The position numbers and the translations under genes are program-made. The notes under the pieces were generated by a model, which searched no databases, was not told the origin of the DNA, and was given only the letters and a program-made list of their open reading frames with translations. From assembly GCA_016758965.1 (NCBI GenBank), contig JAEPRB010000080.1:64501-128500 (forward strand): a stretch of DNA of 64,000 nucleotides, in the 5' to 3' direction. This document shows, one piece after another, positions 39,893 through 51,267 of this stretch (its first letter is position 1; every line of letters begins with the position of its first letter). This stretch comes from Circinella minor (lineage: Eukaryota; Mucoromycota; Mucoromycetes; Mucorales; Lichtheimiaceae).

Positions 39893-41158
39893 TTATGCAA
39901 CAACACTATCATCTTCCGTCATACGCTTAAGTTTTTCAGCACGGACGAGCGTAATGAATTCTTCAAACAAATATTCTGTATCTTGAGGACCCCCCTTAGC
40001 TTCTGGATGAAATTGTACTGAGAAAATAGGAAGGGATTCATGACAAATACCCTCATTGGAACCATCGTTGGCGTTAATAAAAAGTTTGTTCCAACCGACT
40101 GGCATCACCTTATCATTCAAAGCATAACCATGGTTTTGAGAAGTAATTGAACATTGACCTGTTTGGACATGTAAAGCAGGTTGATTATGACCACGATTAC
40201 CAAAAGGTAATTTGTAAACCTTCATACCAATAGCCATACCGAGTAATAAGTTGCCCATGCAAATACCAAAAATGGGTTTGCCAAAAGTTTCAATGGCTTC
40301 TTGCAAATGTTTCACAACGGTCATACCGCATGTTTCTGGGTTACCCGGTCCGTTGGAAACAAAAAGACCATCGTATAATTCTTGATCTTTGTTGAAATCA
40401 TAATCAAAGGGTAAAACAGTAACACTGGCACCACGCTTTGTTAAGCATCGAATAATATTTTGCTTGACACCACAATCGACAACAGCAATCTTAATATCAC
40501 CATCTGGATTATAATGAAGAGGGGTTGGGGTGGATACACGAGCAACCAAATTTTCTGTATTTGGATCCCACAAGAATCCATTTTCTTTGGGATTTATTTG
40601 TTCTTCTGTAGCATGGACAGTGAGATGAGCAAGTGTAGAGCCTTGTTCCCGAAGCACTTTAACAATAGCACGAGTATCAACTCCAGTAATGGCTGGGACA
40701 TTGAAACGTTTACACCAATTACCCAAAGATTCTACAGCAGTCCAATGTGAGTATTGAGCAGCATAATCGGTTACAATAATACCAGAAACTTGAATCTTGT
40801 CAGATTCAAAGTATTTAAAAAGACCAAACTTGTCTTTTACAGGTCCTGGTACACCATAATTGCCTAATAAGATAAAAAAAATACGGTTAGTTTTTTTTTT
40901 CCCACTTGTAAACTTTTTGTTTTCTTAACTTTTGTTTATTTATTTATTTTTTAACATACCAATGAGCGGTTGAGTAAAAACCAGAATTTGGCCAGTATAT
41001 GAAGGATCAGTCATAGATTCGGGATAACCTACAAGAGAAGTAGTGAAAACAGCTTCACCAGTAACACTTGTATCGGCACCAAACGAAACACCGGTATAGG
41101 CTTGACCGGATTTTAACTTGAGAGTAGCAAGGTTAGGCTTTTGATTTAAAAGATGCAT
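39893..41158 (-). CDS. CPA1: Carbamoyl-phosphate synthase small (glutaminase) subunit, arginine type
   Basis: Glutamine amidotransferase subunit that supplies ammonia to the large subunit for carbamoyl-phosphate synthesis in arginine biosynthesis. Two exons, 41158-40960 and 40863-39893, give about 390 residues. The N-terminal CPSase small-chain domain contains [33 protein letters not shown] and TQPLIGNYGVPG. The class-I GATase domain has the strand [14 protein letters not shown], the oxyanion region SNGPGNPE, the nucleophile Cys in [19 protein letters not shown], and the catalytic His-Glu in FSVQFHPE. The Gln normally following the nucleophile motif (GICxGxQ) is Leu. The segment [20 protein letters not shown] and [12 protein letters not shown] resemble vertebrate CPS1/CPS III more than yeast Cpa1, but the polypeptide ends as a separate small subunit (TEDDSVVA, stop 39895-39893). 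No mitochondrial presequence is apparent. The leader carries an AAP-like uORF (41162-41353). Confidence 0.93.
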
Positions 41159-41161
41159 AAT

Positions 41162-41353
41162 TTAAAAACTTCCAGAGGCTTTCCAGACTATATATTAATA
41201 TATATTTATGAGGGGGGGGGGATGTCATAATGACGTTAGTAAAGTATTATAAGAATAAATAACAAATCCTTTTTTATCAAAAATAAAAAAAAAATACATA
41301 CGTTGATCGCAAATATAGTCGGCTGAGCACGTTTCAAAGGCGTGAATGTACAT
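41162..41353 (-). CDS. Arginine attenuator peptide-like uORF of CPA1, intron-split
   Basis: A 25-codon upstream ORF in two exons: ATG at 41353 to 41302, then 41187 to the TAA at 41164-41162. The 114-nt intron has a GTATGT donor (41301-41296), a perfect TACTAAC branch sequence (41241-41235) and a TATAG acceptor (41190-41188) that is the first AG after the branch. Residues 8-19 of the spliced peptide read TCSADYICDQLW. From memory, the Neurospora arg-2 AAP is 24 residues with SQDYLSDHLW at positions 10-19; the alignment is gapless, with Ser-10, Asp-12, Tyr-13, Asp-16, Leu-18 and Trp-19 in register. Asp-12 is the residue whose loss abolishes arginine regulation in Neurospora. The start context is poor (C at -3, T at +4), which favours leaky scanning. 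The stop is followed by only 3 nt before the CPA1 ATG, which has A at -3. Arginine-dependent ribosome stalling is inferred, not shown. Confidence 0.85.
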
Positions 41354-43551
41354 AAGCAGGGCGAAAGTAAATCGCTTTAATAGAGTTGTGTTTTTTTTTG
41401 TCGCGCTTAATAGAAGTTTCTCTATGAAAAAAGAGAAGGCAGCAAAAAAAAGAATGAAAGAGGAACAAGGAGAAAAAAAAAAAAGAAAAAAAGAAAAATT
41501 TTATTGTTTAGGAACAAACAATTTTGGGGATTCATAATGAATCATCCGACATAACTCCGACTCGGACTCGACTTGATTTGTTTAATAAAATGTTCACATT
41601 TTAACGCCCTCCTTCCGATTTTTCTCGTTATACTAAAATTCTGCCACATGGCAACAAATGGATTATAATAAAACAAAAACTTTAACAAAAAAAATGTGTG
41701 TGCATGAAAATGCAGATTTTCTGGTTTTTTTTTTTATTAGTGGGTTGGATTGATAAATAGATTTATATACTCAACATTAAAAACTTTGTATGTCTATTTT
41801 CGCTTGGATTCATTTAACAATTACAAAGCTATGAAGTATAAATCTGTAGCAACACCCTCAAATTGAACTATTAACCTGAAGAATGGGATAAGTTCGGCTT
41901 TTTCATTCATTTTTTGATAAATATAATATGCAACGTAGTACAAGTTACCGAAGCTATACATAGATAGTTAATGTTTTCATTAACTTGAATGTAAAGGATT
42001 CATTATTATCGTGTGTCCTTCTCCGTTACACTATTTTATATAATTGGCCAAATTTGATATGGATAAAAGGTAATCCAGAAATTCAAACAACATATATAAG
42101 CTCCCCCTGTATAATAATAATAATTATAACTGGATATCTCTCTGCTGTCATATTTCACTAATTGCATTATAATAAAATGGTAAACATGCACTGATTATTT
42201 TTACAAGAGTAAAAAAAGTTGTTTTGAAATGAAATATAATAATCATTTTAATCTTCCATCATATACATTATAACAGATATAGATGATTATTTATTGTAAA
42301 GTAGTCTACATTTTTAATAGATATCTTTTTTACTTCACCAATTGTTAGTACAGATAATCCGGTTAGCCTGTGAAACATATCAAATCAAATACTTAAGCTT
42401 TTCATTAACGAGATTCTTTGTAACAGGCTTTTCAGTATGATCCACCCTATTTGTTCATATCAAGCATGAAATTTTTTTGTATTTTGAACAATCATATTTT
42501 TATATGCTAGTTCATGTAGTGATTTCATTCCTTATCCATAAATAATAATATAAGATAACCACTTGATACGTCTGCTAAATAATTGCATATATAGTACTAT
42601 AGAGCAGCAATTTTAACTTTAAAAAAGTATTTCAATTATCCTGGAAAATTAAAAAGCGGTACTATTTCTTGATAGTGTATAGTTTATTTTAGCCATGTCA
42701 GCACTCTTAACTTTATATTGGCGGAATTTCACACTGTAAAACTTTAAAGTATTTGCTGTCCATGATTCCTTTGCATTCTTTGAGCGACTAACGCTAAAGG
42801 TAATGACTATTTAAACAAAAAAAAAGAGATTTTAGCTGGATGAACCGAAAAGTTACTACACATTCAACCTCCCCTGGTAATATCAATATTAGGATCTTGT
42901 AATAATAAGTTTCATAAGTGCTTGATCCTGATTTTTATTGAATATTAAACATAATCATGGCAAACCGATATGGTGGATCATTTCTAATATACCTTCAGTA
43001 TTTTTTTGCATCTGAAACAAATAGAATCATCGGATGTCATGTTTATAATGTGTGAATTTAAACATGTTGGTGGCGTTACGTGTATATTTTATGACACCGA
43101 AAAAATATAATAATTGATACTAGCGTAACTTTGCGTAACTTTTATGAGGATTGTCATTGTAGTCATGCTAGCAGTCGCCCCTGACTAATGATGATATCCC
43201 CTTTTCGCTTTAACGTTGTGATTACGAATAAAGGTTATTATCTTTTATAATGCGAATAAAAAAAAAAACTACGATTTATATCTTCGGACATTACTAAAAC
43301 TACTGAATAGGAAAAAAAAGATCAGTAATTATGAAAGATATGCTGTAAATAGTAGTAAACTAATAATTAAAAATTGGCAATCTTGTGTTTTCTCCCCCCG
43401 ATGCCTTGATTGGAGTATACATCTCCGCATTCTCGTCAATAACATATATTCATATATTTTATGTTAATAATATTATCTATTTTTCTCTTAATATTATTTA
43501 TATACATGTGTAATATTTCATTGGATTTTATACATCCAAGGAGCTTATTGT

Positions 43552-43755: not shown

Positions 43756-44895
43756 AAAGCATCGATTTCTGGCGTATACTATTTGTGTTTACTGTGCTTC
43801 AACAATAACAATATTTAGTTCAGCCACTGTCAGAAATAATGGAAGTATGTTTACAGTCACTGGTACAAATATTTAATTGTTTTGTGTTACTGATAGACAA
43901 GATATAATAAACACTGAGTAAAGAAAAGATAAATGGAGAAATCCTCTATCAATTCATTAAACTTTGAGATCAACAGAAAAGTATCATGTATAATTTAATG
44001 GTACCGGGTTATTGCTATACTGATAGTGTAAAAAAAAAAATAAGGATGACGGATTGGGTCGTTAGCTTATATTTTTGTTAATGAATTAGACACCCATTTA
44101 TGGCTATTAATTTTTATTAAAAAAAATAAAAAGTAGAGCCCTACCATCCCCGCTCAGACATCACCAAAAAATTATTTTCTCCTCCCTTTCACGAAGAGAA
44201 AAAGATCAATTACTTTTTTTTTGCTATTACTAAAGGGAACTAACAATGCAGTAGTAGTCGATCTTCTCGTTTGCATACATCTACGATAAATTAGTTCCTG
44301 TGTTTGAAGAACATAATTACTTTCATACTTATTTATCATTTATGCGTTAGAGATTTTTTTTATCTTTTAAACTCACATATATCATTGTATAGAGTAACAC
44401 AAACGAAAAAAAAGGTAGCGTCTTACGAAAGCTGTCAGACAATGACTCAACGGAAATGTAATTTTTTATTAACAAGCTCAAGTTACCTTGTCCATGTGGA
44501 GCTCTGGGAACTCATTAAAGAAAAAGTAACGATCGGGTGTAGATAGTAAGCAATAACAAAAGAAAAAAAGGGGGTTTTAAACTGAACACGACAAAGAGAT
44601 ATAATTGACCTTATTGTACTACCACTGCTTTAAAATTAAGAAAATACGGAGTTATGATAAATAAAATGATGTGATACTAGATCCAATAAATATGTCAATC
44701 CTCATTGTAACCTACACACATACCTTAATAGATAATCATCATTTTTTTTTATATAAAAGAACTTACTTTTTGGTTTTTTTTTTAATTCTTTATCCAAAAT
44801 CTTATTTTACATAGAACAATACATACAAAGTTCAATCCCCCCCTCACAATCTTTTTTCTATTCTTCTTTCAAGAAGTGTACATATACATCATCCA

Positions 44896-44903
44896 TATAT
44901 AAA
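44896..44903 (+). promoter_or_regulatory. TATA box of the first PL14 lyase
   Basis: TATATAAA lies 50 nt before the start codon, followed by a C-rich patch and a short A/T leader. The pseudogene copy keeps a similarly placed TATAAATA at 47210-47217, which supports it as a shared core promoter. Confidence 0.55.
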
Positions 44904-44952
44904 CGGCCCCTCACCTTCCCTTATATTAAACATACATATTTACATAAAAAAA

Positions 44953-46155
44953 ATGCATCTCACTCTCATTCATATTTTTTTGGCTATCTTTTCTGTACAT
45001 TTCGTTGTAGCAAGTGATGAAACGTGGAAATTCAGTAATTGGAACAAATACAAGAACAGTAAGAAATCTGGTGATTCCGAAAGTTGGTTTAAAGCTTGGG
45101 GTATTGCCAAAAATGATGGTTGGTCATGGCCTCACAATGATGGCTCTGGTAGCAATCATAAAATTGTAAAAGATCCTTCCGGTTCAAAAGATCAAGTTTT
45201 ACAAGTCACTTATCCATCAGGTAGCAGTAATCCAGCTGGTGATCCACAAGGTGGCATTGGATTTTATGCTCAACCAATCAAGTTAAGTCATGAAGCTAAA
45301 ACTGTAACTTTTCAATATCAAGTTTATTTTCCAAAAAAATTTCAGTTTGTTAAAGGTAATATATATATATATACATATGACAATTACAATTACTATAGCA
45401 TGTGTCATAATTTGTTACACAGATCTTAAATCACTCACACGCGTTTAATATTTTTTTCTATTAAACTATCAATTATTAGGGGGTAAATTACCAGGATTAT
45501 ATGGCGGACATGAAGGATGTTCCGGAGGTGCTGATGCTACTACATGTTTCTCAACGAGGTATATATAATAAAAATTTATTACATAATCAAAAAAGGCTCA
45601 AGGGAAATATATAATATGTCAAGACACTTATTTAATATTTTTGATGCAATGAAATGTGCGTATTAGATTTATGTGGCGCCGTAACGGTGATGGTGAAGTC
45701 TACGCCTATTTGCCTGAAAGCAAGCAACGTGATGGTCTTTGTGATGAGAAAGGAAATGTTTGTAACAAAGATTATGGTTACAGTCTTGGTCGCGGTTCAT
45801 GGCAATTCAAGACGGGTAAATGGACCACTGTTCGTCAAACTCTAAAACTTAACCGTCCTGGAAAGAATGACGGTATGGTTACAGTCGAAGTAGACGGTAA
45901 AAAAGCTTATACCGAAAATAAACTCGCATTTCTCAACAAAAATACTGGCAAAGTTGTTGGTGTTGGTATGTATTCTTTTTCAATAATATAAAACTACTTA
46001 TCCATGTTTTGTTCTGTATATGTAATAACAATTATATTTTTGTTTTTGCTTATGTAGCATTTCATACTTTCTTTGGAGGTAATGGTAAAGATTGGGCACC
46101 CAAAAAGAAAGAAAACAGTTACTTCAAAGGCTTTTCTTTAAAGGCAACCTCTTAG
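44953..46155 (+). CDS. Secreted polysaccharide lyase, PL14-like
   Basis: Four exons, 44953-45355, 45480-45558, 45667-45965 and 46058-46155, give about 290 residues. The first 20 residues form a signal peptide (LTLIHIFLAIFSVHFVVA), so the enzyme is secreted. The rest fits fungal PL14-type jelly-roll lyases: WKFSNWNKY near the start, GGIGFYAQPI, the conserved GGKLPGLYGGHEGCSGG (exon 1/2 junction), FMWRRNGDGEVYAYLP, YGYSLGRGSW, TVRQTLKLNRPGKNDG, FHTFFGGNGKDWAPK and YFKGFSL. Cys pairs at CSGG...TCFSTR and LCDEKGNVCN probably form disulfides. PL14 enzymes cleave uronate polymers (alginate or glucuronan); since Mucorales walls contain glucuronic-acid polymers, a wall glucuronan is a reasonable guess but unproven. 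It is the first of a tandem cluster with a pseudogene and a second intact copy. Confidence 0.88.
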
Positions 46156-48653: not shown

Positions 48654-50110
48654 ATACTAATCACGTATCAAATTCCTTAATTTTTTCTATTATTATTTCT
48701 GGGCTTATAATAATAGAATATCCCATTTGGTTGAATCCAATGATCTTATCATTCCGGTCTTGCACTAGTATATAGTTATATTCCATTTTAGTTATAATAA
48801 TCGATTCTTGAAAAGGAAATAAGTTACATTGATACATTTGTGTTTTCTGAGACCCTGATCACAACAACAGTTCTACCCTTTTGTAAACATGGCAAATATT
48901 TATATTATTATATTTAACAAAAAAAATATTGGTATTCTAGTACGTATCAGGTTAATATATTCGCAGCACTTATGATGTCGTTTCATGAACATTAATCAAC
49001 GCATTGTGTCAATAGAAACAGAGCCCGAGTCAGTTAATATTTACATAATGACAATCATCTTTGCCACAACAATGAATTTCTGTAAGGCGTTTTTTTCTGT
49101 TTTTGTTGATAAAGAATGGTTAACCATAAAAAAAATAAATTTAAAAAAAAAACCAGAGCTCAAATCCTGGGACCTCAATAATACAAGCATTCATATAATT
49201 CTAGAACATTGCATAAAATAAAACATGTGCTTGAAGGAAATGACGGAAATACCTGGGACTCGTCATTTTAATAAAAAAATCCAGTTTTCATTTAATAAAC
49301 TATAGTAAACAAAGAAAAAGAGACATAATATATATGATTTGTTATGAATGGATGGTTATAACAGTGTCGTTTCACAAAAATTGTTCTGTATACTGGTTTT
49401 ATGTGTCATGGATTATTTTGGTTAAAAATCACAATTTTCTATGTTTTGACATCTTATATATGTATATATATAGGACAATTTTGAATTCAGGGGTTACAGT
49501 AAGGAGAAAGTGGTCGATGCTTCTCAACAACAACAAAATTCAAGTAATTCTCAGTATTGACAGAAAATTTCGTTTGATAGCAACAGAAAAAACAAAGAAT
49601 GAGTTGGGGGGCTGAGTGGCAAAAAAAAAGCCAATTCTCAAACAACCTCCTATTGAACTTAATTTGGACAAGCGAATGCTCCGCTATAATGCTAGAAGTG
49701 TCCATGTGAAGTTCCTTACAAACAAGTGGCAACACAGACGTTAAGTGAAGCGTTACCACCAAAAAATGACAAACCGTTAGTGATTACACAACAACCATGC
49801 TATAACCTTATATATTTAAATGTAACCATTTATTATATGTATTTAACTATTTCTTATATAGTTACCAAGTACCATGACAATGAATAATAAGCGGTGACGA
49901 TTTTCTTTTTTTGCTCTAAAAAGTAACAAATATAAATATGGATTATTTAAATTTTTGTTTCTTTATTTTTTTTTTTTTTATTTTTTTTTATTTTTTTTTT
50001 ATTTTTTTTTATTTTTTTTTTACGACATACTCATCATTTTGATTAAAACATTTTTCTTTATTGCTTTTATTATCATAATACAATTATAATACATTAGTAC
50101 TATTCATAAT
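48654..50110. other. Spacer between lyase pseudogene and second lyase
   Basis: AT-rich with several small frames (48985-49221 and 49334-49615 plus, 49487-49762 minus) of no recognisable family. A striking tract of T runs separated by single A lies at 49962-50021, about 90 bp before the second lyase start. Confidence 0.5.
49962..50021 (+). repeat. A(T)9-15 tandem tract upstream of lyase 2
   Basis: Runs of nine or more T separated by single A, repeated about five times over 60 bp. Such tracts exclude nucleosomes in fungi and may open the promoter of the lyase that starts at 50111. Confidence 0.7.
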
Positions 50111-51267
50111 ATGCGTCTAATTCAACTTCTTGTTTTACTTATCCTGTCTATACAATCTACCAATGCCTACTCTTTAGAACATTGGTCATTTAAAGATTGG
50201 AATGATTACGCTGACGACAAATCTGACAGTAGCGCAGCATGGCGTAATAAATGGAAAATCAGTCGTTGGTCGTGGCCTGGTAAAGGAGGTACTTCTTACA
50301 ATAACCATAGAATTGTGGATGATCCAGCCGGTTCAGGCGACAAAGTTCTTCAAGTCACTTATCCAAAAAAAAGTAGCAATCCTGCAGGGAGTCCTCAAGG
50401 TGGTGTTGGATTCTATGCCCAGCCTATTGCTTTGAGACGTGAAGCTCGATTGGTTGTTTTAGAATATCAAGTTTATTTTCCAAAACCATTTACTTTTATT
50501 AGAGGTTTGTTGCTAGTTTCTATTTGCTGTTTCTTGTCACTGATCAACGTGTTTTATAATTATAATAATTACTTTCCTAAAACTGATTAACAACAAATAC
50601 ATGTCACAATTGTTATTATTTATATAAACTATAGGTGGCAAATTACCAGGTTTATATGGTGGCCATGAAGGGTGTTCGGGTGGTTCAAATTCAGATACAT
50701 GTTTCTCTACAAGGTATAACACTTACTTAAGCAATACTATGTAATAAAGGTATTCTTTTATTAATATATCATTTATTAGATTTATGTGGCGCCGTAAAGG
50801 TGATGGTGAAATTTACGCTTATATGCCTGAAAAAGAACAACGAAAAGATCTCTGTGATGAAAAAGGGAACATCTGCAATCCCAACTACGGGTATTCACTT
50901 GGTCGTGGATCATGGCGATTTAAACTGGGTGAATGGGTAAAGGTCCGTCAAACAGTCAAGCTTAACCGAGCTGATAGACAAGATGGTATGGTAACGGTCT
51001 ACGTTAACGACAAACTTGTATATGATGAAAAAAGATTAGTATTTGTTTCTGAGGATACAAGCAAAATTATTGGAATTGGTATGTACATAACAACAACTTG
51101 GGAAGCAATAAGGAATAATATACTAATAACTGACTTGCATTTCTTTTTTTTTTAAAAAAAAAATTACAGCATTCCATACTTTCTTTGGCGGCAATGGAAT
51201 CGAATGGGCACCAACATCACAAATGTATTCATACTTCAAAGGGTTTTCCTTAATGGCATTTTATTAA
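50111..51267 (+). CDS. Secreted polysaccharide lyase, PL14-like (second intact copy)
   Basis: Four exons at 50111-50504, 50635-50713, 50780-51078 and 51170-51267, with the same intron phases and positions as the copy at 44953, so the two are tandem duplicates. The signal peptide is RLIQLLVLLILSIQSTNA. Conserved blocks are intact: HWSFKDWNDY, GGVGFYAQPIALRREA, GGKLPGLYGGHEGCSGG, FMWRRKGDGEIYAYMP, LCDEKGNICN, YGYSLGRGSWRF, TVKLNRADRQDG, FHTFFGGNGIEWAP and YFKGFSLMAFY. Differences from copy 1 concentrate in the N-terminal third and in charged surface positions, suggesting that the two copies may have diverged in substrate or expression. The enzyme is expected to be extracellular; the uronate substrate is inferred from the family only. 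Confidence 0.88.

Follow-up and report, generated by a model that had tools for sequence, protein, structure and literature searches.

A probable arginine attenuator peptide encoded in the CPA1 leader of the Mucorales fungus Circinella minor

The CPA1 gene and its leader

The DNA analysed here, a stretch of 64 kb referred to as the window, carries on its minus strand a gene for the small subunit of carbamoyl-phosphate synthase (CPS), CPA1, preceded by a short upstream open reading frame (uORF). From 5' to 3' on the minus strand, the features are as follows:

41302..41353, minus strand, 52 nt: uORF exon 1, codons 1-17 and the first base of codon 18 (MYIHAFETCSADYICDQ + C)
41188..41301, minus strand, 114 nt: uORF intron, predicted from the sequence, which splits codon 18 within the arrest core
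41162..41187, minus strand: uORF exon 2, the remainder of codon 18 through codon 25 and TAA, (L)WKASGSF and stop
41159..41161, minus strand, 3 nt: spacer ATT between the uORF stop and the CPA1 start
40960..41158, minus strand: CPA1 exon 1, the start of which is near-identical to that of Phascolomyces articulosus P0001
40864..40959, minus strand, 96 nt: CPA1 intron (GTATGT ... ACTAAC ... TTAG); the spliced protein aligns over its full length with P0001
39893..40863, minus strand: CPA1 exon 2, the remainder of the 389-aa protein (CPSase_sm_chain, GATase)

The initial annotation had described a 25-codon uORF on the minus strand that stops three bases before the CPA1 ATG, and both its coordinates and its reading proved right. 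When 41353-41302 is joined to 41187-41162, the product is MYIHAFETCSADYICDQLWKASGSF followed by a stop, a peptide of 25 residues in which positions 8-19 read TCSADYICDQLW. The uORF and CPA1 (ATG at 41158) are in a common frame, with only TAA ATT in between. Downstream of the ATG at 41535, the next ATG is that of the uORF at 41353, and the spliced message has no other AUG between the 41535 ATG and the CPA1 ATG. The context of the uORF start, ctgcttATGT, has a C at position -3, whereas the CPA1 AUG has an A there; this poor-looking start would be compatible with leaky scanning. The uORF and CPA1 presumably share one mRNA.

The spliced CPA1 ORF encodes a stand-alone 389-aa small subunit with the domains CPSase_sm_chain and GATase. 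Among the best 120 of 8000 scored homologues, it is 93% identical to the protein of Phascolomyces articulosus and 92% identical to that of Zychaea mexicana, both of which belong to the Lichtheimiaceae (Mucorales, Mucoromycota). By its CPA1, the fungus stands close to these two genera. A second close copy was not found in the 46.6-Mb genome. Other loci resembling the CPS small subunit (L003 and L004/L006) share 51-55% identity and lie within open frames of 811 residues; they probably represent two copies of a CAD-type multifunctional pyrimidine gene. CPA1 at the present locus is most likely the arginine-type gene, present in one copy.

The CPA1 start (41158-41090) does not have the longer N-terminus of the Phycomyces, Umbelopsis and Mortierella entries and is much like that of Rhizopus. 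In this lineage, CPA1 may reside in the cytosol. Public records label many stand-alone CPA1 proteins from early-diverging fungi (P0005, P0006, P0066 and others) as 'Multifunctional pyrimidine synthesis protein CAD', although these have a length of only about 400-470 aa.

Similarity of the leader peptide to the arginine attenuator peptide

Few metabolite-sensing arrest peptides of eukaryotes have been studied as thoroughly as the leader peptide of arg-2/CPA1, the arginine attenuator peptide (AAP). Its reference family is Pfam PF08252 (Leader_CPA1), for which the curated cut-off is 18.5 bits. Residues 8-22 of the uORF peptide matched this family at 18.8 bits (E 0.0011) and thus narrowly exceeded the cut-off; the known AAPs of N. 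crassa and yeast reach 56 and 58.8 bits, respectively. None of nine residue shuffles of the peptide matched the family, and neither did the unspliced 42-aa frame. The low score fits an old, diverged member. A search of the PDB sequences gave a single match at E<=10, which was 2xl1, the arginine attenuator peptide of N. crassa; it is in the same register, and weak (E 1.2).

A gapless alignment to the N. crassa AAP shows the residues S10, D12, Y13, D16, L18, W19 and A21 to be identical, and two positions have changed conservatively, from Leu to Ile at 14 and from Arg to Lys at 20. I14, K20 and S22 are shared with the yeast AAP. This alignment bears out what had been read from the letters of the window, namely that Asp-12, Tyr-13, Asp-16, Leu-18 and Trp-19 are kept at their positions, and that Gln-11, Ser-15 and His-17 of N. 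crassa and yeast are replaced by Ala, Cys and Gln. A further difference from both known peptides is the number of residues between the Trp and the stop, which is six here and five in N. crassa and yeast. The length of 25 residues is within the 24-25 residues of AAPs, and the uORF lies in the leader of a CPS small-subunit gene, of a type that is predicted to be arginine-specific.

Asp12, Tyr13, residue 14 and Trp19 have been named as the residues critical for stalling (PMC3130931). Residue 14 is given as Lys in the text of that source, but the N. crassa sequence (P0121) has Leu at this position. All of these critical positions are kept in the peptide (D12, Y13, W19, and I14, which is Ile in yeast and Leu in N. 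crassa), and none of the three replaced positions 11, 15 and 17 is among the critical residues listed in PMC3130931. The importance of the Asp is also described for a yeast cell-free system, in which the equivalent D13N exchange (yeast numbering) abolishes the arginine response (PMC7969011).

The match, the right gene and the critical residues support the assignment as an AAP. Judged by these sequence features, the uORF very probably encodes a genuine AAP of the fungal arg-2/CPA1 leader family, with a diverged core and a predicted arginine-dependent stalling activity; we infer that the uORF is translated, that ribosomes stall on it and that arginine is the signal. The strongest competitor of this assignment, which we regard as unlikely, is that the peptide is an AAP by descent whose response has been lost or altered, so that stalling is arginine-independent or does not occur and the uORF is constitutively repressive, perhaps together with nonsense-mediated decay (NMD). 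The marginal PF08252 score, the three changes within the core and the extra residue before the stop would agree with such a loss. However, Asp-12, Tyr-13, Trp-19 and an aliphatic residue 14 are all kept, and without selection these critical residues should have decayed since the separation of Mucoromycota and Dikarya.

Splicing of the uORF

The uORF intron has a GTATGT donor, a TACTAAC branch-like site at 41241-41235 and a TATAG acceptor, and the stretch between the last two is free of AG. The CPA1 intron has the same donor hexamer and also contains ACTAAC. Unspliced, the uORF frame comprises 42 codons and terminates within the intron, and the full core is absent. The splice signals and the family match that is created by joining the exons together point to splicing of the intron in vivo. 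This support is partly circular, because the PF08252 match is itself created by the splice. Patterns of the form GTATGT..ACTAAC..AG occur three times on the minus strand and not at all on the plus strand of the window, and 20 mononucleotide shuffles contained 0-2 of them each, so that the real number is barely above background.

In an intron-retaining mRNA, there would be a second uORF at 41228-41133 (31 codons), which overlaps the CPA1 start out of frame. Because of this overlap, the unspliced mRNA should be poorly translated.

Assessment of chance similarity and of a coding function

A chance origin would mean that a meaningless short ORF in the leader appears AAP-like only under one particular GT-AG joining. 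To this reading, which we consider very improbable, one can count that the junction is predicted and that the splice-site patterns hardly exceed the background. All uORFs in 500 nt of leader, taken both as they stand and after removal of each possible GT-AG intron of 40-250 nt, were scored by BLOSUM against the AAPs of N. crassa (residues 9-21) and yeast (residues 10-22). The best score of the real leader was 43, which was not equalled in any of 963 dinucleotide shuffles that were subjected to the same splicing scheme (largest score 28), at a similar number of candidate uORFs (114 in the real leader, about 112 per shuffle). Permuting the peptide in a fixed register 200,000 times did not yield a score of 43 either; the largest value was 40.

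The same comparison was extended to both strands of the window. With GTATG donors, the uORF ranked first among about 25,000 spliced blocks, the next unrelated one scoring 30. With any GT donor, it was still the best of about 1.2 million blocks, but one unrelated block came close with a score of 42, which speaks for chance as far as the motif is concerned. The case thus rests on the place of the match in the right leader and not on the motif alone. Against chance stands the coincidence of gene, length, register, position before the ATG and critical residues, together with the fact that the peptide exceeds the PF08252 cut-off. When the unspliced six frames of the 46.6-Mb genome were searched with PF08252, nothing exceeded the cut-off, and four weaker matches were obtained, the best of them at 14.5 bits (six candidates scored after a loose first pass). 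Such an outcome would be expected of a peptide that is completed only by splicing. In the same search, one of 14 control genomes gave a signal below the cut-off.

It is hardly conceivable that the exon pair instead belongs to the CPA1 coding sequence as a 5' exon, encoding for instance a targeting extension, with the TAA circumvented through alternative splicing or readthrough. The frame shared across TAA ATT and the longer CPA1 N-terminus of many other early-diverging fungi would allow it, but the close relatives P0001 and P0002 have the same CPA1 start as the gene described here, and the peptide, judged by eye, contains three acidic residues and does not resemble a targeting sequence. Splicing to either of the next two AGs 3' of the acceptor, followed by hand, would end at the TAA already described or run beyond the ATG in another frame to a different stop. 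The motif D-[YF]-x-x-D-x-[LIVM]-W is present in none of 120 homologues (best 120 of 8000 scored), on which ground an N-terminal CPA1 extension was rejected.

Proposed mechanism

In the established mechanism, the AUG of the uORF is poorly placed and the main ORF is supplied by ribosomes that scan past it, and at high arginine the nascent peptide holds the ribosome at the uORF stop (described in PMC7969011, PMC11550727 and PMC4505036). The start context of the yeast CPA1 uORF is likewise described as inefficient (PMC7969011). If the peptide of the present locus acts as an AAP, many scanning ribosomes would bypass the uORF AUG in its poor context and initiate at the CPA1 AUG. In those ribosomes that do translate the uORF, the exit tunnel would contain the nascent D-Y-I-x-D-x-L-W core, and at high arginine these ribosomes would stall at the TAA or one codon earlier. 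Since the distance from the core to the stop exceeds that in N. crassa and yeast by one residue, a stall that is fixed by the distance from the Trp would place codon 25 in the A site.

The CPA1 AUG begins 6 nt downstream of the position at which the uORF stop codon starts. A ribosome of the usual footprint with a stop codon in its A site would extend over an AUG that lies 3 nt beyond that stop. Because the gap is only 3 nt, the stalled ribosome would cover the CPA1 AUG itself, in addition to damming the scanning subunits behind it. As the outcome, less CPA1 would be made, and hence less carbamoyl phosphate for arginine. The 3-nt gap also makes coupled reinitiation at low arginine possible. More tentatively, arginine-sensing control of CPA1 might predate the split between Mucoromycota and Dikarya and might here be coupled to splicing, the core being present only in the spliced mRNA, and to direct occlusion of the CPA1 AUG; we give this broader proposal clearly less credence than the identity of the peptide.

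Comparison with known systems

The peptide shares with the N. crassa arg-2 and S. cerevisiae CPA1 AAPs (PF08252) the leader of the same gene, that of a CPS small subunit which is here presumably the arginine-specific one, as well as the 25 codons and the poor-looking start context of the uORF. It differs from them in its occurrence in Mucoromycota and, apparently, in the predicted intron within the core at codon 18 and in the gap of 3 nt between the uORF and the main ATG.

The initial annotation had put forward an AAP in a non-ascomycete. The identification as an AAP held up on the PF08252 cut-off, the right gene and the critical residues, but a non-ascomycete host alone is not new. An AAP-type uORF outside the Ascomycota is described for the CPA1 homologue CND01050 of Cryptococcus, where the uORF shows strong ribosome occupancy, the main ORF is repressed and the mRNA is 5-fold up in a upf1 mutant (PMC7049704). 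This uORF precedes the same gene as the one described here, but belongs to a basidiomycete. In Toxoplasma gondii and related coccidia, the uORF of TgApiAT1 is reported to encode an AAP-like peptide with a required Asp and to confer arginine-dependent repression; a function shared with the AAP would, in the words of its authors, amount to convergent evolution (PMC8370653). The TgApiAT1 uORF controls an arginine transporter, whereas the peptide described here precedes the same gene as the fungal AAP, which makes descent the simpler reading.

It is the phylum, and not the non-ascomycete status, that is the surprise of an AAP at this locus. In the literature searched, which covers few of the subscription journals, none of the titles listed concerned an AAP in Mucoromycota. 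Three aspects are apparently new: the occurrence of an AAP beyond Dikarya, the interruption of the arrest core by an intron, and a gap of 3 nt by which the CPA1 start would come to lie within the stalled ribosome. A zygomycete entry in the survey by Hood et al. 2007, if there is one, would lessen the novelty of an AAP in Mucorales. If the assignment is true, a diverged AAP in Mucorales suggests that the switch predates Dikarya as well as the lineages that have served for its study. The core changes at positions 11, 15 and 17 would then be a natural test set for the sequence rules derived from Neurospora mutants, and the combination of a 3-nt gap and a core intron would offer a layout that allows the effects of occlusion, reinitiation and splicing to be distinguished from that of damming upstream.

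Additional observations

AAP words were present in the protein collection in the N. crassa peptide (P0121) and in a fused AAP-CPA1 gene model of 469 aa (P0122, source 'merc'). The latter matches PF08252 at 48.6 bits. Its alignment with other CPA1 proteins does not begin before about residue 118, and the AAP and CPA1 parts are separated by a scrambled stretch. P0122 is probably a frame-broken gene model, and it provides an example of an AAP uORF that was swallowed by gene prediction.

When viral contigs were searched with P0001, no relative was found, and eight stretches matched a pattern. With a 25-member CPA1 alignment, three loci were obtained from the viral contigs, at 38, 39 and 54% identity. 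The same alignment retrieved 591 relatives from the genome contigs, and the 80 of them that were listed are all bacterial by title; a fungal contaminant may be present among the others. In the literature, the terms PF08252 and CPA1 leader peptide also occur in a comparative genomics paper on mycobacteria (PMC3388012).

Elsewhere in the window, two ORFs about 5 kb apart (44815-45426 and 50090-50587) each contain the start of a polysaccharide lyase 14 domain. By eye, both have starts resembling a signal peptide.
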